Origin: Rhodococcus opacus B4
Lineage (GTDB): Bacteria > Actinomycetota > Actinomycetes > Mycobacteriales > Mycobacteriaceae
Reading direction: 5' to 3'
Assembly: GCF_000010805.1 (NCBI RefSeq)
Contig: NC_012520.1
Location: 248,001 to 312,000 of the forward strand
Length of the DNA stretch: 64,000 bases
The position numbers were made by a program, and so were the translations under genes. Position 1 is the first letter of the stretch. Each line of letters opens with the position of its first letter. Under the pieces are notes generated by a model. That model had not been told where the DNA came from. It searched no databases and worked only from the letters and a program-made list of their open reading frames with translations. This document shows, one piece after another, positions 1,600 to 30,540 of this stretch.

Positions 1600-2529
1600 T
1601 CACCAGGGCAGTTCGCGGCAGCGGCCTTCGCCCTCGGCGGGTTCGACCTGCAACGTGGCGTGCTCGAGGTCGAACTTCTCCGCGAGCAGTGTCTGCGCCG
1701 AGGCGAGTACGGCGGTCGGGTCCGCGCCGCGTTCGGTGATCAGGTGCGCCGACGCCACCTCCATGCCCGAGGTCAGCGTCCACACGTGCAGGTCGTGCGA
1801 TTCCTTCACTCCGGGCAGGGTTTCCAGGGCGTGGCCGATCGCGTCGACGTCCACGCCGGCAGGGGCGTGCTGGAGCAGGATGCGGATGGCGTGGCGGCCG
1901 AGGTTGAACGCACGCGGCAGGACGAACAGGCCGATGGCGACACCGATGATCGGGTCGGCGTACCGCCACCCGAACAGCAGGGTGAGCAGTCCGCTGACCA
2001 GTACCCCGATCGAGCCGAGCATGTCGGCCATGACCTCGAGGTAGGCGCCGCGGACGTTGATGGACTCCTTCGCGCCGCTGCGCAACAGCAGGAACGCTAT
2101 GACGTTCATGGCCAGCCCGACCAGCGCGACGATGACGACCGGCAGGCCCGGCACCTCGGGCGGATCGTCGAGTCGCCCGGCGGCCTCGTAGAGGATCCAG
2201 CCGGCGACCCCGAAGAGCAGGACCGCATTGAACAGGGCGGCGAATACCTCCGCCCGGTACATCCCGAAGGTACGCTCGGGCCGGTTGTGCGCCTTGTTCG
2301 CCAACGTGATGGCGATGACCGCCATCAGAATGCCGAGCACGTCGGTGAACACGTGCGCCGAATCCGACAGCAGCGCCAGCGATGACGTCGACAGGCCCAC
2401 CGCGACCTGGGTGACGAAGGTGACCAGTCCGAGGGCGACGGCGATCCAGAGCTTGCGCAGGTGCTTCCCGGAGGCGCTCGTCGCGTCCGCGGGCGAGATC
2501 CCGTGGCCGTGGCCGTGTCCCTGACCCAT
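1600..2529 (-). CDS. Cation diffusion facilitator (CDF) metal exporter
   Basis: This 309-residue protein has a short His/Gly-rich N terminus (GQGHGHGHG), six predicted membrane helices and a cytoplasmic C-terminal domain (PGVKESHDLHVWTL), the CDF layout. CDF proteins export divalent metals (Zn, Co, Mn, Fe) by proton antiport. Membrane helix 2 carries HVFTD of the metal site. Helix 5 reads EVMAD, so Glu stands where many zinc CDFs have His, which makes strict zinc specificity uncertain. I chose the ATG at 2529, preceded by AAAGGA; an upstream in-frame extension to 2625 runs through an operator-like palindrome and is unlikely. Regulation is probably by an ArsR/SmtB-type repressor at 2575-2586. 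Confidence 0.9.
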   Translation of the reverse strand: MGQGHGHGHGISPADATSASGKHLRKLWIAVALGLVTFVTQVAVGLSTSSLALLSDSAHVFTDVLGILMAVIAITLANKAHNRPERTFGMYRAEVFAALFNAVLLFGVAGWILYEAAGRLDDPPEVPGLPVVIVALVGLAMNVIAFLLLRSGAKESINVRGAYLEVMADMLGSIGVLVSGLLTLLFGWRYADPIIGVAIGLFVLPRAFNLGRHAIRILLQHAPAGVDVDAIGHALETLPGVKESHDLHVWTLTSGMEVASAHLITERGADPTAVLASAQTLLAEKFDLEHATLQVEPAEGEGRCRELPW

Positions 2530-2574
2530 GACAGCGTGTCCTTTCGTTGCAGCGTCAGCCCGGATCATATTGTC

Positions 2575-2586
2575 ATATGCGCATAT
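2575..2586. promoter_or_regulatory. ArsR/SmtB-like palindrome upstream of CDF gene
   Basis: ATATGCGCATAT is a perfect 12-bp palindrome in an AT-rich pocket 46 bp upstream of the CDF start. ArsR/SmtB metal sensors commonly bind such short palindromes over the promoters of metal exporters. The core ATGCGCAT recurs at the start of the MMPL gene (24978-24987), and a related GTGCGCAC lies upstream of the ArsR-MFS pair (40461-40468). The assignment to a particular repressor is inference. Confidence 0.5.
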
Positions 2587-2621
2587 ATTCAATCGGGAGG
2601 GTGTTCGGTGCCGCACCCTCG

Positions 2622-2642
2622 TCAACTAACCTGCATAGTATT
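2622..2642. promoter_or_regulatory. BlaI-like operator (degenerate) upstream of copD-ctaG fusion
   Basis: The right half GCATAGTATT matches the consensus GCATAGTAGT at 9 of 10 positions. The left half TCAACTAACC matches ACTACTATGC at 6 of 10. It lies 69 bp before the GTG start of the CopD-CtaG gene, the same kind of placement as the better sites at 19389, 32029 and 37490. It is the weakest of the six candidate sites. Confidence 0.5.
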
Positions 2643-2711
2643 TCGGCGGCGGTGCACAGGCGATGAGCTGGCTCGACCGGAACTCCACAGACCAGGAAGG
2701 CCCTCTTTCGC

Positions 2712-4646
2712 GTGAGTGCAGTAGATGACCCCAGCGCCCCCGGGGAGCGGGCCCGCAGGCGCACCCTGCCGCAGATCCTCGGCTGGGCGGCGATCGCGGC
2801 CCTCGTCGCCGCCGCGCTGGCGCAGCTGTCGACCACCGAGGCGCTGCGCCTGTTGGGGTTACCCGATCCCGGCACGCTCACCACCTACGGGCTGCCGGCG
2901 GTGATGGCATTCGGGGAGGCGTGTGCGGTGGTCATGGTCGGCTCCGCCCTGCTGTCCACGGCGCTGGTGCCACCACAGCCCTCCGGGGTCCTCGACGTCG
3001 ACGGGTATCTGGCGATGCGCACCGCCGGTGTCGCCGCCGCACTGTGGGCGCTGAGCGCGGTCGCGCTGGTGCCGCTGACCCTGTCGGACAGTTCCGGGCA
3101 GACTCTCGCCGTGGTGTTCGCCGACCCGGGCCCCTTCGTCCAAGCCGTCACCGACCTGGAGGTCCCGAAGGCGTGGGCGTGGACCTGCCTGCTCGCCGTG
3201 GTGGCCGCGATCGCGGCCCGGCTGGTGCTGCGTCACAAGTGGACCCCGGTGGTGCTGGCGCTGGCGGTGATCAGCGTGCTGCCGCGCGCCCTGTCCGGGC
3301 ACTCGGCCTCGGGCGGCTCGCACGACGTCGCCACCAACAGCCTCCTCTTCCACATCGTTGCCGCCGCGCTGTGGGTGGGCGGGCTGGTGGCCCTGGTGTT
3401 GCACGCCCGCCGCCGCGGCGCGCGCCTCGATATCGCGGTCCGCCGGTTCTCGGCGCTCGCGCTGGGCGCCTTCACGGTGATGGCGGTCTCCGGGGTCATC
3501 AACGCCGCCGTGCGGCTCCCGATCACCGACCTGGTGACGAGCACCTACGGGGTACTCGTCCTGGCGAAAGTCGCCGCCCTGGTACTGGTCGGGTTCGCGG
3601 GCTGGCGCCAGCGCACCGTCGCGGTCACCGCACTCGAGAACGATCCCGAGGACCGGGCGGAGTTCGTGCGGCTCGCGGTGATCGAATCGGTCGTGCTCGC
3701 GGTCACCGTCGGCATCGCCGTCGCGCTGGGGCGCACCCCGCCGCCGGCCGGCGAGCGCCGCGAACCCACCCCGCTCGGGGAAACCCTCGGCTACGACCTG
3801 GGCGGCGCGCCGTCCGCCGGCCGCATGCTTCTGGATTGGCGGTTCGACCTGATCTTCGGGACCGCGGCGCTCGTGCTGGCGGCCGCCTATCTGCTCGGCG
3901 TTCGGCGCCTGCACGCGCGGGGTGACCGGTGGCCGGTGGGCCGGACGGTGTGCTGGGTTCTCGGGTGTGTGGTGCTGCTGCTGGCCACCTCGTCGGGGCT
4001 CGGGCGATTCGCGCCGGCGGTGTTCAGTGTCCACATGGGCGCGGTGGCCGGGCTGGCGATCATCGCGCCGCTGCTGCTCGCGCTGGGGGCGCCGCTGACC
4101 CTGTGGTCGGCGGCCGCGCGCCGCGGCGCCGACGGTGTGCCCGGGATGTGGGAGTTCTCCCGGCAGCTCTATCTCAGCGCCCCGCTGCGGCTGCTCACCC
4201 GCCCGGCGGTGGCGCTGACCCTGCTGTTCGGCGGGTTCTACGTGTTCTACCTCGGTGGGATCTACGGCTCGCTGGACGGATCGCACACCTGGCACGTGGT
4301 GTCCAACGGCTACTTCCTGGTCGCCGGGTTCGTGTTCTTCTGGGTCAGTGTCGGCCCGGACCCGACACCGGCCGCCGCCTCCACCCGCACCCGGCTGATC
4401 ACGGCGGTCGCCGGGCTCGCCGCCTACGCCGGCTTCCTACTCCTGGTCGCCCGCGCCGACAGCGTCATCGCCGCCGAGTACTACACGATGTTGCGCCGCG
4501 GCTGGTGGGACGACCTCGCCGCCGATCAACGGCTCGGCGCCGCGATCGGGGCGGGCACCGGGGCGGTGGCACTGGCGTTCGCGGTCGTACTCGCCGCCGC
4601 CGCGGTCACCGCGCCGCGCCGCGGCCGCACCGCGGCGCGCCGATGA
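2712..4646 (+). CDS. CopD-CtaG fusion, copper transport / cytochrome oxidase assembly membrane protein
   Basis: The 644-residue polytopic protein joins two copper-related membrane domains. Residues of roughly 1-340 form a CopD-like copper-import domain with conserved RRFSALALGAF and GVINAAVRL segments. Residues of roughly 370-635 form a caa3-type CtaG domain (SVHMGAVAGLAI, GFYVFYLGGIYGS, HVVSNGYFLVAGFVFFW). The fusion is known in actinobacteria; the combined role is inferred to be bringing copper to the membrane and to cytochrome c oxidase. The GTG at 2712 is preceded by AGGAAGG. A degenerate BlaI-like site precedes it and a MerR gene follows. A second CtaG is encoded at 32713. Confidence 0.9.
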   Translation: MSAVDDPSAPGERARRRTLPQILGWAAIAALVAAALAQLSTTEALRLLGLPDPGTLTTYGLPAVMAFGEACAVVMVGSALLSTALVPPQPSGVLDVDGYLAMRTAGVAAALWALSAVALVPLTLSDSSGQTLAVVFADPGPFVQAVTDLEVPKAWAWTCLLAVVAAIAARLVLRHKWTPVVLALAVISVLPRALSGHSASGGSHDVATNSLLFHIVAAALWVGGLVALVLHARRRGARLDIAVRRFSALALGAFTVMAVSGVINAAVRLPITDLVTSTYGVLVLAKVAALVLVGFAGWRQRTVAVTALENDPEDRAEFVRLAVIESVVLAVTVGIAVALGRTPPPAGERREPTPLGETLGYDLGGAPSAGRMLLDWRFDLIFGTAALVLAAAYLLGVRRLHARGDRWPVGRTVCWVLGCVVLLLATSSGLGRFAPAVFSVHMGAVAGLAIIAPLLLALGAPLTLWSAAARRGADGVPGMWEFSRQLYLSAPLRLLTRPAVALTLLFGGFYVFYLGGIYGSLDGSHTWHVVSNGYFLVAGFVFFWVSVGPDPTPAAASTRTRLITAVAGLAAYAGFLLLVARADSVIAAEYYTMLRRGWWDDLAADQRLGAAIGAGTGAVALAFAVVLAAAAVTAPRRGRTAARR

Positions 4647-11124: not shown

Positions 11125-12686
11125 AGTCCCGCTACCTTTTTCGACTGGGAGAAGAGCACGTAGGTCATGGGCAGCGACAGCACGATCATGATCAGCGCGT
11201 ACGGTGCGGCGCCGGCGTAGTCGATCTCGCTGCTCAGCGACCAGAACTGCATGGACAGGGTGCGGGTGCCGGTGGGCGCGAGCAGGAGGGTGGCGGTCAG
11301 CTCGTTGACGATCCCCAGGAACACCAGGGCCCCGCCCGCCGCGGTGGCCGGGGCGGCCAGCCGCAGCGTGACCCGGACGAAGGCCGACAGCGGTGAGAGA
11401 CCCAGCGACTGCGCCGCCTCCTCGAGCCCGACGGGCGCCTGCGCGAGACCGGCCCGCAGGTTCACCAGCGCACGCGGCAGGAAGAGCAGCGCGTAGCCCG
11501 CGATCACGACGGCGACGCTCTGATAGAGCGGATGGAGGTAGCGGATGGAGACGGTGACCAATGCCAGTGCCACCACGATGCCGGGCAGCGAACTCGAGAT
11601 GTAGGTGCCGCCCTCGAGGAAGCGGCTGAACCGGCCGGGGTGGCGGATCGAGATCCAGGCGATCGGGAAGGCGACTACACACGTCACGACGGCGCCGGCG
11701 ATGCCGAACCCGAGAGTCTGCACCAGCGCGGACGCGACGGCGTCCCATTCCCAGACCGCGCTCCCGCCGATGACGAGCCACCGCACGACACTGACGACCG
11801 GGACACCGACGGACGCCGCGATCAGCACCCCGAGGAACAGAAGCACGATCGGTGAGTACCGCCAGCCGAGTTCGGCGGGCACGGCCCGGCGGGCCGCACC
11901 CGACCCGATCCGGGCGTATCGGGCGCTGCCACGGACGACCGATTCGATCACCAGCAAGGTGAGGCAGAGCAGCACCAGGACACCGGCGAGCATGGTCGCC
12001 GCGGTTCCGTTGAACGTCGACTGGTACTGCTCGAAGATCGCCGTCGTGAACGTGTCGAACCTGATGAACACGAATGCGCCGTATTCGGCGAGCAGGTGCA
12101 GCGAGACCAACAGTGCCCCACCCGCGATGGCCAGCCGCAGCTGCGGCACCACGACGCGGAAGAACACCGCCCACGGCCCCACACCGAGGGCCCGCGCCGA
12201 TTCCTCGACGGCCGGATCCAGCCGGCGCAGTGTCGCGGCCGCCGGAATGTAGACGAGAGGGAAGTACGAGAGGGTCGCGATGAGAACACCGCCGCGCAGC
12301 CCGCCGAGGGAGGGAATCGCCGTCACCCAGGAATAGCTGTTCACGAACGCCGGAACAGCCAGAGGCACCGCGAGAAGCACCGCCCACACCTTCGCACCCG
12401 GCACCCGCGTGCGCTCGACGAGCCAGGCGGCGAGGACGCCGAGGACGACACAGATCGGCACCGTAACCACGACCAACAACACGGTGTTCGAGAGCAATTC
12501 GCGTACCCGCGGGCGGAACAGCAGCGCCGACGCGGTGTCCCAGCCCGTCGCGATGCTCTGCACCATCACGTAGCCGAGCGGAATGAACGACGCGGCCACC
12601 ACGATCACCGCGGCGACCGCCAATGGGAAGGGCAGGTGCGGCCGGGCGGTCGGGCGACGCGCCGTGGCCGCGTCGCCCGACCGCAC
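11121..12686 (-). CDS. fbpB: Ferric iron ABC transporter permease (FbpB-like)
   Basis: The 521-residue protein has about 12 predicted membrane helices in two halves, each with an EAA-type loop (EESARALGVGPWAVFFRVVVP and LEEAAQSLGLSPLSAFVRVT regions). This is the internally duplicated permease of FbpB/CysT-like ferric transporters. It lies 20 bp after the binding-protein gene and overlaps the ATPase gene. It should move iron across the plasma membrane as a single two-fold permease. Confidence 0.92.
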   Translation of the reverse strand: MRSGDAATARRPTARPHLPFPLAVAAVIVVAASFIPLGYVMVQSIATGWDTASALLFRPRVRELLSNTVLLVVVTVPICVVLGVLAAWLVERTRVPGAKVWAVLLAVPLAVPAFVNSYSWVTAIPSLGGLRGGVLIATLSYFPLVYIPAAATLRRLDPAVEESARALGVGPWAVFFRVVVPQLRLAIAGGALLVSLHLLAEYGAFVFIRFDTFTTAIFEQYQSTFNGTAATMLAGVLVLLCLTLLVIESVVRGSARYARIGSGAARRAVPAELGWRYSPIVLLFLGVLIAASVGVPVVSVVRWLVIGGSAVWEWDAVASALVQTLGFGIAGAVVTCVVAFPIAWISIRHPGRFSRFLEGGTYISSSLPGIVVALALVTVSIRYLHPLYQSVAVVIAGYALLFLPRALVNLRAGLAQAPVGLEEAAQSLGLSPLSAFVRVTLRLAAPATAAGGALVFLGIVNELTATLLLAPTGTRTLSMQFWSLSSEIDYAGAAPYALIMIVLSLPMTYVLFSQSKKVAGL

Positions 12687-22679: not shown

Positions 22680-24986
22680 CTATCTCGGCGACGATGATGG
22701 GCGCGGTTCGGATGCCGCGCTCTCCTCGAGCCGAAGGTCCGGCCGGACACGGCCACCGCGACGGTGCCGGGTGCGGGGAAACCACCAATTCCGCGCGCCG
22801 AACAGCCGCATCAGCGCGGGAACCAGAACCAACCGGACGATGACCGCGTCGATGGCCACCGCCACCGCGAGTGCGAGACCGAGCTGCTTGAGCTCCAACA
22901 CCTCCGCCGTGACGAAGCTCCCGAACACCACCACCATGATGGCGGCCGCGGCGGTGATCGGGCGGGCGGTGTGCGTGATGCCGGCGGCGACCGCGTACTG
23001 ATTGTCGTGGCTCGAATCCCAGTACTCCCGCATCCGGCCGATCAGGAAGACCTCGTAGTCCATCGACAGCCCGAACAGGATGACGAACACGACCGTGGGC
23101 AGATAGACCTGCAGGAAGCCGGTGCTGGTGAAGTCGAGCAGCGACTCGCCGATGCCCCATTGGAAGACGGCCACGGTAATCCCCAGGGCCGCCCCGGTGG
23201 CCAGGAGGTTCATCACGATCGCCTTCACCGGCAGTACCAGGCTACGAAACGCCGCCAGCAGAAAAACCAGCGACGAGCCCAGGACCAAGGTGATGACCAG
23301 CGGAAGTTTGGCGGTCATTTCGTCGGAGATGTCGATGAATTCGGCGGTGCTGCCCCCGATCAGCACCACCGGTCCGCCGCCGCGCGCTACCTCGGCCGCT
23401 TCCGCGCGGAGGTCGCGCACCAGTTCGCCGGCGGCCATGGAATCGAACGGCACCCCGGGGATGGCCGAGATGAGCAGCCGCCCCTGGCTTTCCTGGGCGG
23501 GCAGGACCGCATCGACGCGGCCGTCGCGGGCGATGCGGTCGACGAGCTGATCGACTCGGGTGATGTCCTGCGCGGTCAACGGGGTATCGCCGGGGCCGGT
23601 GGCGATCATCTCGAGCGGGGACAGCGAGCCCGCCGGGAAATTCGCGGTCAATGCCGCCGCCGCGCGGCCCGAGGGTGCGGTATCGAGGGCGGAGGTCCCC
23701 ATGTCCAGGCCGTACCGGATCCCGAACAGCGGTATCGCGGCGAAAACCAGGACACCGACGGCCAGAGATCCGAACAGCACGGGACGGGCCATCATCGCGT
23801 ACGCCCACCGTGCCCACCGGCCCGGCTTTCCCGGATCGACGGGGGCGGCCTCGGCCGGCCGCATCCACTTCGGCAGTGCGCCGCGGCCTACCGCCGGACC
23901 GAGTGTGGCCAGCAGCGCCGGCAGCAGCGTCAGGCTGACGATCAGCGTGCTGACCACGGCGGTCGCGACCGCGAGGGCGATCCCTCGAAAGACCGGAGCC
24001 GCCATCACGATCAGCGAACACAGCGAGATCATCACGATCAGTCCCGAGGCGATGATCGTCCTTCCGGCGGTCATCAGGGACCGTCCGACGGCATCGGCGA
24101 TCAGTGCCCGGCCGTCCCGGCCGGTCACCCCGGCCCGGGTCAGCTCCTCGCGGAAGCGGCTGACGATGAACATGGCGTAGTCGATCCCGATGCCGATCCC
24201 GATCATCGTCGCCATCGAGACGACCAGCGGATCGAACGCGGTGACCGTCGTCATCGCGAACATGCTCCCGACCGCGACCAGCAACCCGGCCACGGCGACG
24301 CAGATCGGGACGATCGCAGCCACGAGGGCGCCGAGCGCCAGCACGAGAAGTGCCAGCGCCACGGGAATTCCGATCGTCTCGGCGCGTTGCACGTCGGCGT
24401 TCTGGATCTCGGTCACATCGTTCTGGACCGGTGAGTAGCCGGTGAGCGCCGCGTCGATGTCTGCGGTGCCGGTGGCCGCAATCGCCTCCTGCAGTTCCCT
24501 GGCCACCACCGCCCGCCGGGCCATGTCCCCGTCCAACCCGACCACGGCGATCGCCACCCGCCGATCCACCGAGATCTGCGCCCCGTCTCCGGCATACGGG
24601 CCGAGGACACTGCGCACCCCCGACATCTGCTGTGCCACTGCGACGGTACGGGTGACCGCCGCCCTGAACTCCGGATCGTCGGCGGTCCGGGTTCGGGATT
24701 GGAAGACGATGACGTCCTGCTCCACCCCGATCTGCGGGAAATGTTCGGTGAGCAACCGGTCCACTTCGGCCGACTCGGACTCCTCCACACTGAAGTCCGG
24801 TGTGCCGAGCCGGGACTCGAGCATCGGGTAGGCGGCCGCGCAGAGCACGAGCAGCGCAACCCACGCCCCGAGCACCAGTCGCCGCCGCCGCGCCACCGCG
24901 ACCCCCCACGCATAGATCACCGGGCGGCGTTCGCCCTGTCCCGGAGCCGGGGCGAACCCCTCCACAGATGATGCATGTATGCGCAT
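22680..24986 (-). CDS. MMPL-family (RND) transporter
   Basis: The 768-residue protein has the RND/MMPL plan: an N-terminal helix (RRRLVLGAWVALLVLCAAAY), a large extracytoplasmic loop, a block of helices with GIGIGIDYAMFIVSRFREEL carrying the proton-relay Asp/Tyr, then a repeat of the pattern with FGLSMDYEVFLIGRMREYW. MMPL proteins export lipids or drugs; the substrate is unknown. The ATG at 24986 lies within an ATGCGCAT palindrome, so a later start (GTG at 24966 or at VIYAWG) is also possible. The palindrome suggests ArsR- or TetR-like control. Confidence 0.9.
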   Translation of the reverse strand: MRIHASSVEGFAPAPGQGERRPVIYAWGVAVARRRRLVLGAWVALLVLCAAAYPMLESRLGTPDFSVEESESAEVDRLLTEHFPQIGVEQDVIVFQSRTRTADDPEFRAAVTRTVAVAQQMSGVRSVLGPYAGDGAQISVDRRVAIAVVGLDGDMARRAVVARELQEAIAATGTADIDAALTGYSPVQNDVTEIQNADVQRAETIGIPVALALLVLALGALVAAIVPICVAVAGLLVAVGSMFAMTTVTAFDPLVVSMATMIGIGIGIDYAMFIVSRFREELTRAGVTGRDGRALIADAVGRSLMTAGRTIIASGLIVMISLCSLIVMAAPVFRGIALAVATAVVSTLIVSLTLLPALLATLGPAVGRGALPKWMRPAEAAPVDPGKPGRWARWAYAMMARPVLFGSLAVGVLVFAAIPLFGIRYGLDMGTSALDTAPSGRAAAALTANFPAGSLSPLEMIATGPGDTPLTAQDITRVDQLVDRIARDGRVDAVLPAQESQGRLLISAIPGVPFDSMAAGELVRDLRAEAAEVARGGGPVVLIGGSTAEFIDISDEMTAKLPLVITLVLGSSLVFLLAAFRSLVLPVKAIVMNLLATGAALGITVAVFQWGIGESLLDFTSTGFLQVYLPTVVFVILFGLSMDYEVFLIGRMREYWDSSHDNQYAVAAGITHTARPITAAAAIMVVVFGSFVTAEVLELKQLGLALAVAVAIDAVIVRLVLVPALMRLFGARNWWFPRTRHRRGGRVRPDLRLEESAASEPRPSSSPR

Positions 24987-24987
24987 A
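24978..24987. promoter_or_regulatory. TATGCGCATA palindrome at start of MMPL gene
   Basis: A perfect 10-bp palindrome overlapping the predicted MMPL start. It shares its core with the 12-bp palindrome in front of the CDF gene at 2575-2586, which suggests a common ArsR/SmtB-type repressor or two related ones. Confidence 0.4.
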
Positions 24988-25701
24988 TCGCTATGTTTCC
25001 TCGCGGGTGCGGGAAAAAGCAACCCCCGGGGCAGGAAAATGTGGTGCGGGTGCGCCGCCCCGATCCCGCAACCGCGCGGCGGCGCGGCGTTGTTCACTGG
25101 TGGACCCGGATCTCGACGGGAGTCGAAAGATTCAGCGTCGCACCGTAGTAGGTAGGTGCGCGCAGCGCCGGGGCTTCGGCGCTGCGCGCGGATGTGCGCC
25201 GTCGCCGCGTCGTGCGTTCGACGGGCGTGGGGGAGCGTCGCGCAACGCTAAGTACTATGGTGAATAGTACTTGGGGCAACGTCGCCCCGCCGTGGCCGGA
25301 CGCAGCGCCGCGTCCGGACTTCGTCCGCGTGCCGGGCGCCGCCGCGTATCGATGCGCCCCGCGGGCGCACTGTCGCTCGGCCTCGGCGCGCAGCCATGGG
25401 CGATCGGAACACCCCGCGCCGGGCCGCCGTACCTGCGCGTCCGCAATCTAATTACGTTGTCTAACAACATCTTTCGTTGATGTGATGCTCGCCGCACTTC
25501 GTCTCGGATCTCAGGATGTTCTAAGCCTGCGTCCGTAGCGTCGGCGACCGCAGATCCCTCGGCCCTCCGGGGTGAGCAGAGCAAGACGCCAGCGGTGTCA
25601 GTTCGGCACGCTCTCACCGACGTCTTGGTCTCAACCGGAAGGCACACCGTGCACGACGACAGCGCCCGGCAGCTCGAGACCGGGGTGAAGGAGAAAGCCG
25701 T
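24987..25701. other. Long intergenic leader with strong hairpins
   Basis: About 715 bp without a convincing gene. It holds a perfect 12-bp stem CGCGCAGCGCCG/CGGCGCTGCGCG at 25159-25170/25177-25188 with a 6-nt loop, the BlaI-like dyad at 25251-25271, a perfect 8-bp stem CCGGACGC/GCGTCCGG at 25296-25303/25310-25317, and a GTTGT-CTA-ACAAC dyad at 25456-25468. Transcription from the BlaI-like site would give a leader of about 400 nt before the SulP-carbonic anhydrase gene, or a separate small RNA. Confidence 0.45.
25251..25271. promoter_or_regulatory. BlaI-like operator upstream of SulP-carbonic anhydrase
   Basis: Halves AGTACTATGG and GAATAGTACT around a central T match the consensus at 16 of 20 positions and are symmetric in the core AGTACTAT/ATAGTACT. 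The site is 430 bp before the start codon, further away than the other sites, so the direct target is less certain. Confidence 0.6.
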
Positions 25702-27447
25702 ATGCCGCCGACCACGACCACACAGAGCGACGATCCACCCACCGCCGCGGACGACTCCGCGAAGCCGGCCCCCTGGCTCCCACGGGTGCTCCGACACGAC
25801 CTGCCGGCCTCGCTGGTGGTGTTCCTCGTCGCCCTGCCCGCCCTGCCCGACGGGCAATGGCTCGGTGTCGCCACCGGAGTGCTCACCGTGGCGTTGATCG
25901 CCAGCGTCGAAAGCCTGCTCTCGGCCGTCTCGGTGGACAAGATGCACACCGGTCCGCGTGCGGACCTGAACCGGGAACTGCTCGGTCAGGGGGCCGCGAA
26001 CATCACCTCCGGTGTCCTCGGCGGCCTGCCGGTCACCGGGGTCATCGTCCGCAGCGCCACCAACGTCAACGCCGGGGCCCGCACCCGGGCCTCGGCGACG
26101 TTGCACGGGGTCTGGGTGCTGGTGTTCTCCGCCCTGCTCGCCGGTCTCGTCCAGCAGATCCCGAATTCGGTTCTGGCGGGTTTGCTGATCGTGATCGGTA
26201 TCCAGCTCATCAAGCTCGCACACCTGCGGATCGCCCACCGCACCGGTGATCTGTGGGTGTACGGCGTCACCGCCGCCGCGGTGGTGTTCCTCAACCTCCT
26301 CGAGGGTGTGCTGATCGGGCTTGCCCTGGCGGTCGCCCTCGTCGTGTGGCGGGTGGTCCGCGCCTCCATCCACGCCGAACCGGTGGGCACCCCGCAGTCA
26401 CGTCAGTGGCGGGTGGTCGTGGAAGGCTCGTGCAGCTTCCTGGCCCTGCCCCGCCTGACCAGCGTGCTCGCCTCGGTGCCCCCGGACAGTCACGTCACCA
26501 TCGAACTGACCGTCGACTTCCTCGACCACGCCGCATACGAGGTGATCGAGGAATGGTCCCGCCAGCACGAGAGCAACGGCGGCACAGTGCTGATCGACGA
26601 ACGGGGAACCGCGGAAATGGCGGCGGCCGCCGCCGGACCCCCGACACGCACCACCGACGGCACCGCCCAACTCAGCCGGCGCGGCGGCTTCGCCCCCTGG
26701 CGGGTCTGGCAGAAATTCCACCTCCACCACACCCCGGACGGTCAGACGAAGCAACCGGGTCCACGGGCACTCCGGTCGGTGCTGGCCGGGATCTCCGACT
26801 ACCACCGCACCCACGCTCCCCACCTGCGCCCGCACATGGACGACCTGCACGACGGGCAGAACCCCGACGCCCTGTTCTTGACCTGCTCGGATTCGCGGAT
26901 CGTCCCGAACATCATCACCAGCAGCGGCCCCGGCGACCTGTTCACCGTCCGCAACATCGGCAACCTGGTCCCGGCCGGGGAGCGCGACGACTCTGTCGAG
27001 GCGGCGCTGGCCTTCGCGCTCGACGAACTGGGGGTCAGCTCCGTGCTGGTGTGCGGCCACTCCGGGTGTGGCGCCATGAAAGCCCTGCTGGCCGACCAGG
27101 ATCAGCCGCACCCGCGGTCCGGCGACGGCCTCGCCGTGGGGCGGTGGCTCGAGCACGCTCAGCCCAGTAAGAGGGCGTACCTGGCCGGGCACCCGGTCGC
27201 CCGCGCCGCCGCCGAGTCGGGGTTCGGTGCCCTCGACCAACTTGCCATGGTCAATGTCGCTCTGCAGCTGCAAACCCTGCAACGGCATCCGCTGATCGGC
27301 GCGGCGATGTCGGAGGGCCGGGTCCACATCGCGGGCCTGTTCTTCGACATTCCCACCGCGCGGGTACTGGCGGTCTCGACCAGCACGATCGACGAACTCG
27401 ACCCCGACAGCGCCGCGGCGGCGTCGCTGTCGGCCCCGCTGGGTTAA
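25702..27447 (+). CDS. SulP-type transporter / beta-carbonic anhydrase fusion with internal deletion
   Basis: The 581-residue protein is the SulP-STAS-carbonic anhydrase fusion known in mycobacteria (Rv3273, 764 residues). Residues of about 1-46 match the normal N terminus up to SLVVFLVALP, which then joins directly to ALPDGQWLGVATGVLTVALI. From family knowledge about 200 residues of membrane helices are missing between them. A STAS region (HVTIELTVDFLDHAAYEVIE) and an intact beta-carbonic anhydrase domain follow, with zinc ligands in CSDSR and CGHSGCGAM. The anhydrase should work, whereas anion transport probably does not. The join lies in GCCCTGCCC tandem copies (25831-25848), suggesting a short-repeat deletion. 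A strong terminator follows. Confidence 0.9.
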   Translation: MPPTTTTQSDDPPTAADDSAKPAPWLPRVLRHDLPASLVVFLVALPALPDGQWLGVATGVLTVALIASVESLLSAVSVDKMHTGPRADLNRELLGQGAANITSGVLGGLPVTGVIVRSATNVNAGARTRASATLHGVWVLVFSALLAGLVQQIPNSVLAGLLIVIGIQLIKLAHLRIAHRTGDLWVYGVTAAAVVFLNLLEGVLIGLALAVALVVWRVVRASIHAEPVGTPQSRQWRVVVEGSCSFLALPRLTSVLASVPPDSHVTIELTVDFLDHAAYEVIEEWSRQHESNGGTVLIDERGTAEMAAAAAGPPTRTTDGTAQLSRRGGFAPWRVWQKFHLHHTPDGQTKQPGPRALRSVLAGISDYHRTHAPHLRPHMDDLHDGQNPDALFLTCSDSRIVPNIITSSGPGDLFTVRNIGNLVPAGERDDSVEAALAFALDELGVSSVLVCGHSGCGAMKALLADQDQPHPRSGDGLAVGRWLEHAQPSKRAYLAGHPVARAAAESGFGALDQLAMVNVALQLQTLQRHPLIGAAMSEGRVHIAGLFFDIPTARVLAVSTSTIDELDPDSAAAASLSAPLG

Positions 27448-27482
27448 CCCGGGGGCCCAGCCGGTCGGGGAAAGCGAATCTG

Positions 27483-27519
27483 GGGGAGGCCCGCGGCGCG
27501 AGCCGCGGGCCTCCCCTTT
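27483..27519 (+). terminator. Intrinsic terminator after SulP-carbonic anhydrase
   Basis: A perfect 15-bp stem (GGGGAGGCCCGCGGC at 27483-27497 pairing with 27502-27516) closed by a GCGA tetraloop of the GNRA type and followed by TTTC. It lies 36 bp after the stop and also faces the convergent ZIP operon. Confidence 0.85.
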
Positions 27520-27605
27520 CAAGACGGGGTGGTGCGGCGTCATCCGGCGGCACCTGCACCTCACCGCCGGCACGCTGCGTCGTCTACCGTGCGTCGACCC
27601 GGTCG

Positions 27606-28787
27606 TCAGGCGACCACGAGGAGTCCGGTGACATACATCGTGAGCAGCCCGGCGGTGATCCCGCCGATGGTGCCGGGGCTGAGTACTCGTCCCGCACGGT
27701 CGCGCAGGGCGGGGGCGATCTGGAGGATGACCTGCGCGATCGCCCCGACACCGATGCCCAGGAGCAACGCCGACAGCTCGGCGTTGTTCACGCTGGCGCC
27801 GATGAGCGCACCGACAATGGCCGGTGTCCCGGCGAGTAGCCCCAGACCGAGGAGGTGCAGCACTGGCGGGCGCCGTTGGGTCAGCGGGGTCACGACCGCC
27901 AGCCCCTCGGTGGTGTTCTGGATGGTGAATCCCACCACCAGGGTCGCCCCCAGGGCGAGCTCGCCGACAGCGTAGGCGGCGCCGATCGCCAACCCCTCAC
28001 CGAGATTGTGCAGTCCGATCCCGAGGGCGATCATGAACGCCAGACGGATCCCGCTCGATCCCCGCGTGTCGCTGACGGCGCGGCGGGACCCGAGATAGCG
28101 GTCCAGTGCGGTCAACCCGAGGAACGCGAGTACCGCACCGAGGACCAGGAGGGCGGGGCCGCCGAAGGCGCCGCCACCGCGTTCGGAGAGTTCGACCCCC
28201 TCGAGGGTGGCGTCGACTGCGAGGAATGCCAGCAACCCGACCGTGAGCCCCAGCAGGACACGTATCCCACCGGGTCCGATCCTGCGCAGGACCGGCAGGA
28301 ACAGCATTCCCAGCACGACGGGGATGATTCCGACGTAGGTCCCGATCAACGCCATCAGTGCGAAGAACCCGGCATCGGCCTGCGGGGTGGTCACCGCAGC
28401 CGGGATCTCGTGTTCGATCACCAGGCCGGTCGAGGTCAGGAACGAGAGCAGATACGGCTGCCCGTCCTGCCACGGGTAGTCGAGCCGCAGGACCTCCGAG
28501 TCCAGGTGCCCGATCGGCTGCTCCCCACCGGTCAGATCCACGTAGGAGTCGTTGACGAACACCTGCGCGACCTGGACCGGATCGGGTCCGGTGTTGCGGA
28601 CGGTGACCTCGATGGAGCCCGGGACCAGTTCGGTGTGTTCCACCGCGAGCTGCTCGATCGGCGGCCCGGCCCGCTCGGGCAGGGTCCGGCCACCGACCAT
28701 GGCGAGCAGGAGAAGGGCGGCACCGATGAGCAGGGCCGCACCGACCGCGGAGATCCAGGTCCGTTTGCGCTCGACCGAGGTGCCCAT
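27606..28787 (-). CDS. ZIP-family metal transporter with extracytoplasmic N-terminal domain
   Basis: The 393-residue protein begins with a signal/anchor helix and about 110 residues of predicted beta-rich extracytoplasmic domain (GSIEVTVRNTGPDPVQVAQV). Then come eight hydrophobic segments of a ZIP permease with HNLGEGLAIG in helix 4 and NTTEGLAV in helix 5. The first motif is the ZIP metal site; in the second, the usual His-Glu pair (HEIPEG) is reduced to NTTEG. ZIP proteins move Zn, Fe or Mn into the cytoplasm. It overlaps the multicopper oxidase stop by 1 bp and sits third in the DtxR-MCO-ZIP operon. Confidence 0.85.
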   Translation of the reverse strand: MGTSVERKRTWISAVGAALLIGAALLLLAMVGGRTLPERAGPPIEQLAVEHTELVPGSIEVTVRNTGPDPVQVAQVFVNDSYVDLTGGEQPIGHLDSEVLRLDYPWQDGQPYLLSFLTSTGLVIEHEIPAAVTTPQADAGFFALMALIGTYVGIIPVVLGMLFLPVLRRIGPGGIRVLLGLTVGLLAFLAVDATLEGVELSERGGGAFGGPALLVLGAVLAFLGLTALDRYLGSRRAVSDTRGSSGIRLAFMIALGIGLHNLGEGLAIGAAYAVGELALGATLVVGFTIQNTTEGLAVVTPLTQRRPPVLHLLGLGLLAGTPAIVGALIGASVNNAELSALLLGIGVGAIAQVILQIAPALRDRAGRVLSPGTIGGITAGLLTMYVTGLLVVA

Positions 28788-29839
28788 CAGTCGGTCACCT
28801 CGAAGAACCCCATCCAGCCGAGTTCGGCGAATTCGGTCTTGTGGGCGTGGAACATGAACCGGCCGGTGTACGGGAACCGCAGTTCGCAGATGCCGCGCTG
28901 ACCCTGCGCCTGCATGACGGTGTCGGTGTACTCGGACGGCTGCAGGCGGGTGCCGGTCGGGTAGTAGTCGAAGAAGTTCCCGTGCAGGTGGAAGGTGTTG
29001 ATCGGGTCGTATTCGAGGGCGTTGACCAGGTAGATCCGCACCAACTCGTTGCGCCGCACCCGGATCGGTTCGTGCATGTAGTGGAACGGGATCCCGTTGA
29101 CGGCGTAGAGCTGATTGCCCTCCCCATCGAAGGTGGTGTTGTAACCGTGCATGACCATGACCATTTCGTCCGCCGGCGGGCGCGGGGTGGGCGGATCGAC
29201 GATGAACGTGCCGTACAGGCCGCGGGCGATGTGCTCGGCGAGCGGTCCGACATGGCAGTGATACAGATGCAACCCGAACGGTTGCGCGTCGAACTCGTAG
29301 GTGAAGCTACCGCCGGAGGGAATGACACCCGGGCCGATGTCGGGGACCCCGTCCATCTCGGCTCGGTGGATGCTGTGAAAGTGCATCGTGTGCGGGTGCA
29401 TGGAGGCGTTGATGAACGTCACCCGCAGCAGATCCCCCTCCTGGCAGCGCAACGTCGGCCCCGGGATGCGCCCGTTGAACGTCCACGCCGGATACCGGAC
29501 CCCGGGCGCGATTTCCACGTCGACGTCGGCGGCGGCGATATCCCACTCGCGCAGTACCCGCCCGTCCGGCAGGAGGGAGACCCGGCCGTAGTCGAAGTCG
29601 CGCAGAACCTCGGTGGGATCGAAACCGTTCGCGTCATGGTCGACGATCGCGCCCTTGCGGAACGTCGGGCCGCTGACCCCGCCGCCGTGGCCGCCGGCAT
29701 GCGCGCCGCCGGAATGCGCCTCCTCGGTGCCCGGCGAGGGGGAGGCCGCCGACACCCCCCGGACTCCGAGCGCTGCCGCACCGGCGGTGCCGAGCAGGGC
29801 GGAGCCCAGCAAGAACTGTCGTCGCGATTCGGCCATCAC
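28787..29839 (-). CDS. Multicopper oxidase, Tat-exported
   Basis: The 350-residue protein has a twin-Arg signal (ESRRQFLLGSALLG) and then two cupredoxin domains. Copper ligands are visible in HPHTMHFHSIH, HLYHCHV, TFHLHGNFFD and FMFHAHKTEFAELGWMGFF. The short length fits two-domain oxidases rather than three-domain CueO. Substrates may be Mn(II), Fe(II) or Cu(I); the DtxR-family regulator and ZIP neighbours make oxidation of a transported metal plausible. The start overlaps the DtxR-like stop by 4 bp. Confidence 0.92.
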   Translation of the reverse strand: MMAESRRQFLLGSALLGTAGAAALGVRGVSAASPSPGTEEAHSGGAHAGGHGGGVSGPTFRKGAIVDHDANGFDPTEVLRDFDYGRVSLLPDGRVLREWDIAAADVDVEIAPGVRYPAWTFNGRIPGPTLRCQEGDLLRVTFINASMHPHTMHFHSIHRAEMDGVPDIGPGVIPSGGSFTYEFDAQPFGLHLYHCHVGPLAEHIARGLYGTFIVDPPTPRPPADEMVMVMHGYNTTFDGEGNQLYAVNGIPFHYMHEPIRVRRNELVRIYLVNALEYDPINTFHLHGNFFDYYPTGTRLQPSEYTDTVMQAQGQRGICELRFPYTGRFMFHAHKTEFAELGWMGFFEVTD

Positions 29840-30540
29840 GCTGCCCTGCCGTAAATGAGGCCGCCGACCGCGGCCGCCAGCTCATGCGGGTGGCCCTCGA
29901 TGTCCACGCACACCTCCCCGCCCTGGGGGGATGCTTCTGCCCGGGCGATGACGCGGCCCGGGTAGACGCCCAGGCCCGCGAGCAGTCGCAGCCCATCGAT
30001 GTCCCGGTCCACGACCCGTTCGACCGTGAAATCTCGGCACGGGACCGCAGCCCGGAGACTCTCCGGCCACGCCTCGACATAGTCGCCGGTCGCCGGCGGA
30101 ATCGGGTTGCCGTACGGATCGCGGGTCGGGTTGCCCAGTGCGGCGGTCAGCCGGGAGGCGAGCCGCGGGCTGATGGCGTGCTCGAGCACATCCGCCTCGG
30201 CACCGATCTCGGACCAGGACATGCCCAGGAATTCGGCGAGGAACACCTTCGCCAACCGATTCCGGCGAACAACGTCCACCGCGTGCCGCCCTCCGTGCGC
30301 CGTGAGGGTGACCCGATGGAGTCCGGGCCGTGCGATCAGACCGGCCCCGGCCAGCCGCCGGTGCATCCCGGACACGGTCGGGGTGGCCAGATGAAGGCAC
30401 CGGGCAAGCGCCGACGTGGAGGTCGTGTCGCCCCGGGCAGACAGGCAGAAGAGGGTTCGCAGATAGTCCTCAACCACCGGGGTGAGCAGGGATCCGCAGC
30501 ACTGCGAGGGTGCGCGCATCAAAGAGTTAGGCATGGCCAC
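29836..30540 (-). CDS. DtxR/MntR-family metal-dependent regulator
   Basis: The 234-residue protein has an N-terminal winged helix (VEDYLRTLFCLSARG...ALARCLHLATPTVSGMHRRL), a dimerisation/metal domain (VLEHAISPRLASRLTAALG, DPYGNPIP) and a C-terminal FeoA/SH3-like domain (LAGLGVYPGRVIARAEAS). Such proteins repress metal genes when bound to Mn(II) or Fe(II). A TTAGG dyad overlaps the GTG/ATG start region, pointing to autorepression of this operon. The ATG at 30534 or 30519 could be the true start. A PSQCC segment near the N terminus is unusual. Confidence 0.88.
   Translation of the reverse strand: MAMPNSLMRAPSQCCGSLLTPVVEDYLRTLFCLSARGDTTSTSALARCLHLATPTVSGMHRRLAGAGLIARPGLHRVTLTAHGGRHAVDVVRRNRLAKVFLAEFLGMSWSEIGAEADVLEHAISPRLASRLTAALGNPTRDPYGNPIPPATGDYVEAWPESLRAAVPCRDFTVERVVDRDIDGLRLLAGLGVYPGRVIARAEASPQGGEVCVDIEGHPHELAAAVGGLIYGRAA

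Follow-up and report, generated by a model that had tools for sequence, protein, structure and literature searches.

A probable recent and strain-private deletion in the plasmid-borne SulP–beta-carbonic anhydrase fusion gene of Rhodococcus opacus B4

Background

Proteins that join a SulP anion transporter to a STAS-like domain and then to a beta-carbonic anhydrase include Rv3273 (beta-CA3) of Mycobacterium tuberculosis, and fusions of this type reportedly go back to Felce and Saier 2004. A plasmid-borne gene of Rhodococcus opacus B4 keeps this domain order and has only half of the transporter. The question raised by this locus is whether the short form is a membrane-anchored carbonic anhydrase with a new role, as proposed in a first-pass annotation of the sequence, or a damaged copy of an ordinary fusion gene.

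Rv3273 has 764 aa with a sulfate-transporter domain, and its carbonic anhydrase domain (residues 550-764) retains activity when separated from the transporter (excerpts of PMC6834203). It has also been called an experimentally validated bicarbonate transporter (excerpts of PMC6458275), a statement that lies outside the basis of the conclusions drawn here. The SulP/SLC26 fold, according to excerpts of PMC8298490, consists of 14 helices in which pseudo-twofold symmetry relates TM1–7 to TM8–14, with a core formed by TM1–4 and TM8–11 and a substrate site at the crossing of TM3 and TM10 that is lined also by TM1 and TM8.

The stretch of DNA analysed (hereafter the window, 64,000 nucleotides) covers bases 248001–312000 of a 558,192-base plasmid contig of B4, presumably the 558-kb replicon that bears the name pROB01. 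The B4 genome is finished (8,834,939 bases in 6 contigs, 100% complete), and the R. opacus B4 plasmid is named in excerpts of PMC4988695. The literature searched on the B4 plasmid and on short-repeat deletions in Rhodococcus contained no account of the fusion gene, and that searched on B4 did not give the method by which B4 was sequenced.

The short gene and its retained parts

The features of the gene and of the deletion discussed below are as follows:

25702..27447, + strand: shortened SulP–beta-carbonic anhydrase fusion gene, an ORF with an ATG start (1746 bp, 581 codons, 0 internal stops)
25810..25839, + strand: TM1 remnant SLVVFLVALP, from the sequence and the helix cut in a full-length homologue
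25829..25838, + strand: deletion joint, the single surviving copy of the 10-bp direct repeat TCGCCCTGCC, from the 10-bp prefix/suffix overlap against the strain 9 record (L124)
25831..25848, + strand: two tandem copies of GCCCTGCCC (ALPALP), ancestral, being present in the intact strain 9 gene
25858..26358, + strand: remaining membrane half, the TM8-TM14 equivalent (residues 53-219), from model helices H53-83 to H184-219 (low confidence) and from the intact gene aligned to BicA and SLC26Dg
26365..26601, + strand: STAS-like domain (residues 222-300), with beta/alpha elements at high pLDDT and no Pfam STAS match
26869..27363, + strand: beta-carbonic anhydrase domain (residues 390-554), PF00484 (Pro_CA) E 1.1e-39, Foldseek top match CcaA 5swc
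26884..27069, + strand: zinc-site motifs C395-x-D397-x-R399 and H453-x-x-C456, retained in the window protein

The protein reads SLVVFLVALP joined directly to ALPDGQWLGV without a break, as had been noticed at first reading. Residues 57-181 match the Pfam Sulfate_transp profile over positions 245-369 of 380, its last third only, against positions 1-369 for the intact gene of R. opacus strain 9. A promoter scan returned 0 sites.

The enzyme part has the family profile and the fold of a beta-carbonic anhydrase, together with the Cys, His and Cys zinc ligands and the Asp-Arg dyad; C395, D397, H453 and C456 were invariant, and R399 nearly so, among 43 sequences (42 of 80 genome_contigs homologues plus the window protein, the set used for the structure models, from which some loci, among them those with no clear start, had been removed manually). 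Model confidence was high for the STAS-like part and for most of the carbonic anhydrase domain. All top 50 Foldseek matches listed for the short protein were carbonic anhydrases, whereas SLC26 proteins came first among the best 50 listed for the full-length model. The first-pass statement that the reading frame and the zinc ligands remain agrees with our analysis, and what was called the STAS region is kept as a STAS-like part. The carbonic anhydrase domain of the short protein is probably intact, and enzyme activity is possible since the isolated Rv3273 domain is active.

The membrane half was modelled poorly: its block means average about 62, whereas in the full-length homologue these helices reach about 77 (both averaged by hand). 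The TM1 remnant is weakly hydrophobic, with a peak of 1.59 compared with 2.51 in the intact protein. This leaves seven or eight spanning segments, and hence either side of the membrane for the enzyme.

Comparison with the strain 9 plasmid gene

R. opacus strain 9 carries the closest relative of the window gene, on a 691-kb plasmid (MPY17_RS37455, WP_007296023.1, annotated as a bifunctional SulP family inorganic anion transporter/carbonic anhydrase), with 99.9% identity over the query and with the same locus and neighbours. This gene (L124:20103-22442, CDS 2340 bp, 779 aa) contains all 1746 bases of the window CDS, plus 594 bp that the window lacks. The only difference between the two coding sequences is an in-frame gap of exactly 594 bp, or 198 codons; both flanks align with 0 mismatches, and the missing residues are 47-244 of the intact 779-residue protein. 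The first-pass proposal of a clean deletion that keeps the frame and spans about 200 residues, made by reference to Rv3273-type relatives, is therefore borne out.

In the intact gene TCGCCCTGCC occurs at CDS 128-137 (in FLVALP) and at CDS 722-731 (in the first tandem unit). Because the prefix and suffix shared with the window overlap by 10 bp, the deletion ran between these two copies and left one; alignment to the strain 9 gene places the joint at 25829-25838. An intact parent, a direct repeat at both ends and one remaining copy are what characterises a short-repeat deletion, and all three are seen here. The chance of a 10-bp repeat lying exactly at both deletion ends was estimated from base composition at about 2 in 100,000, and the improbability of such a coincidence supports a repeat-mediated event well. 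Recombination between short repeats had been suspected from the tandem GCCCTGCCC at the joint. A deletion at short repeats is supported, the proposed scar is not: the tandem is already present in the intact gene, which has an 11-bp repeat, CGCCCTGCCCG, at CDS 723 and 732, and we rejected it as a product of the event. The 10-bp pair was absent from the other three plasmid orthologues (R. pseudokoreensis, R. oxybenzonivorans and strain WAY2) and from the chromosomal paralogue.

Direct-repeat pairs of at least 10 bp number 21 in the intact gene, and in 17 of them the spacing is a multiple of three. Most such events in this gene would keep the frame, and we therefore rejected the preserved frame as more than weak evidence of selection.

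The missing transporter half

Aligned by phmmer, residues 29–392 of the intact protein correspond to BicA and 31–482 to SLC26Dg. The window protein has in common with BicA (6ki1) and SLC26Dg (5da0) the TM8-14 equivalent and an acidic position in TM8 (E70 in the window protein), whereas of the TM1-7 that both transporters possess, including the half-helix TM3, it keeps the start of TM1 only. The deletion takes out the last part of TM1, the whole of TM2–TM7 and the loop leading into TM8, that is, one of the two inverted 7-helix repeats with the half-helix TM3 and half of the substrate site. The window protein consequently has neither the two-repeat, 14-helix architecture of SulP proteins nor a TM3/TM10 site, the BicA TM3-aligned segment falling within deleted residues 47-244. 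That transport helices have been lost is thus confirmed; the loss is about half of them (the rest of TM1 and TM2-7) and not most, as had been stated.

The model used for the intact form is that of a full-length Gordonia homologue (L046), not of the strain 9 protein, with one model for each form. Its membrane helices extend from 9–40 (TM1) to 383–404, with TM8 at 237–265. The deletion maps to residues 33 to about 231 of this protein and cuts the helix 9-40 at residue 32. The MAFFT alignment did not keep the N-terminal ~50 residues of the window protein together.

The removed segment belongs to the most conserved parts of the family, with a mean majority-residue frequency of 0.76; the corresponding means are 0.80 in TM8–14 and 0.68 in the carbonic anhydrase region (42 homologues). 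Columns conserved at 90% or more numbered 84 of 199 in the deleted segment and 83 of 180 in the kept membrane half.

Distribution of the short form

With the intact 779-residue protein as the query, residues 47–244 were covered in full (198/198) in all 80 species-genome loci kept of 301 relatives; the coverage test joined matches of at least 25% identity in any frame and so shows that the segment is there without showing that its frame is open. It was likewise present in 21/21 other fused whole-genome loci (L002, L009–L028), the window's own being excluded, and in 4/4 other plasmid records, two of which duplicate whole-genome loci. Within the genus, matches with E no higher than 1e-100 came from 17 of 28 genomes, and the window's copy alone started after residue 30. 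Within the family, 121 matches were obtained in 102 of 251 genomes, and two started after query residue 30, the window's and one other (G124). These genome searches took one genome per species, and other R. opacus strains were covered through the plasmid collection only. On this sampling the short form occurs once, in the B4 assembly.

Two candidates for a second natural short form were rejected. The G124 match starts at query residue 166 and has a stop, whereas the locus of Williamsia sp. 1135 (L047) gave a partial best match with the remainder found as a second match, for which reason it looks frameshifted and not deleted. The transporter part of the SulP-carbonic anhydrase gene is apparently broken by a frameshift or stop in both (L047 at about 2300-4530, and G124:C26); our guess is that they are the same species, and the broken genes are possibly sequencing errors or decaying copies. 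In further family genomes (e.g. G111, G217, G277 and G271), close homologues match the transporter and STAS-like part (about query 5-530) and give no carbonic anhydrase match, which suggests that the enzyme domain was lost or gained within the clade.

The surrounding plasmid and the age of the deletion

The B4 and strain 9 plasmids are collinear over 141 kb and agree almost base for base. The differences listed, after alignments of 300 bp or less (below 1500 bp in a second listing) had been dropped, form 18 small clusters in two long aligned blocks, with one more directly behind the gene. No second difference as large as the 594 bp occurs in the 141 kb, and apart from a hairpin spot directly behind the gene there is no other indel longer than about 10 bp in the aligned sequence. 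With the gene otherwise unchanged and its surroundings almost so, the deletion is judged very recent, and therefore nothing shows selection for the short form.

Two of the clusters sit at GC-rich hairpins (window 12643-12683 and 27482-27516, corresponding to L124 7034-7084 and 22481-22541), where the window has clean inverted repeats and the strain 9 record reads G/C runs. Strain 9 was sequenced by Nanopore plus Illumina (NextSeq) (PMC9584215), for which reason the G/C runs look like an error of the record, probably of base calling or polishing in the NextSeq data. The 594-bp coding segment cannot be an error of this kind, because it is homologous in some hundred relatives. At window 5794 a small tandem repeat of GGGGCC type differs between the plasmids, the window having one 6-bp unit fewer than strain 9.

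Interpretation

Taken together, these results point with fair confidence to a deletion allele, recent and private to strain B4, in an otherwise ordinary SulP–beta-carbonic anhydrase fusion carried on a plasmid. We regard the window gene as a nascent loss-of-function allele and not as a new protein shaped by selection. The 594 bp would have been deleted in the B4 lineage by replication slippage or by short-homology (RecA-independent) recombination. Anion transport by this copy is expected to be abolished, because one inverted repeat of the 7+7 fold is gone, including the TM3 half of the substrate site. If made, the protein would at best be a TM8-14 anchor, itself folding poorly, that carries the STAS-like domain and a probably intact carbonic anhydrase domain. 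The deletion may have been tolerated through redundancy, since the B4 chromosome carries an intact paralogue (69–71% identical) and the genome has carbonic anhydrase matches separate from the fusion genes. Counting against a loss of function are the preserved frame, the lack of a second lesion in the gene, and a carbonic anhydrase domain whose critical residues are intact and most of which is modelled with high confidence.

The chief alternative, an artefact in which the 594 bp was lost from a cloned insert or collapsed in the B4 assembly and the living strain is full-length, is a minority possibility that we consider unlikely and nevertheless worth bearing in mind. Deletions between short direct repeats in membrane-protein genes are typical of cloning; the short form comes from a single assembly, and nothing else of its size separates the two plasmids. 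The finished state of the B4 genome and its near base-for-base agreement with an independent plasmid over 141 kb argue against an artefact, and a repeat of only 10 bp would not lead a normal assembler to collapse a unique stretch of 594 bp.

A functional short form, that is, a carbonic anhydrase anchored by one SulP repeat and selected for its role, appears improbable. The open frame, the intact zinc ligands, the confident models of the STAS-like and carbonic anhydrase parts and the activity of the isolated Rv3273 domain are consistent with it. It is opposed by the absence of any change in the gene after the deletion, by the lack of a second occurrence in the species loci and in the genus and family searches, by the low confidence of the orphan membrane half, by the ambiguous topology that follows from the weak TM1 remnant and by the intact paralogue. 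The similar conservation of the lost segment and the kept membrane half weakens the proposed new role further, and we do not retain that proposal. It is likewise very doubtful that a natural half-SulP, made of TM8-14 and a scrap of TM1, inserts and then anchors an active beta-carbonic anhydrase or pairs with a partner such as the chromosomal paralogue.

That the short form is an old trait of the subfamily can practically be dismissed, as nothing was found in its favour and the helices are present in the 99.9%-identical strain 9 gene and in every other fused relative examined. The refuting condition named in the first-pass annotation, that the helices are lacking throughout the subfamily, therefore does not apply.

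If the recent deletion is real, it offers a natural truncation with which to ask whether one repeat of the 7+7 fold inserts and holds a working enzyme; otherwise it amounts to commonplace damage, confined to one strain, in a plasmid gene that is redundant. It is also a warning for annotation by homology, which would label the B4 gene transporter/carbonic anhydrase when it probably cannot transport. The general interest of this deletion allele of a known fusion is low; production of an active short protein would change that.

As to the neighbourhood, in the strain 9 annotation the gene (region corresponding to window 22680-30540) is flanked by an MMPL transporter and a hypothetical protein. The latter is named a ZIP-family metal transporter in R. 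pseudokoreensis, and beyond it lie a multicopper oxidase and then a metal-dependent regulator, giving the region a metal-resistance-like appearance.
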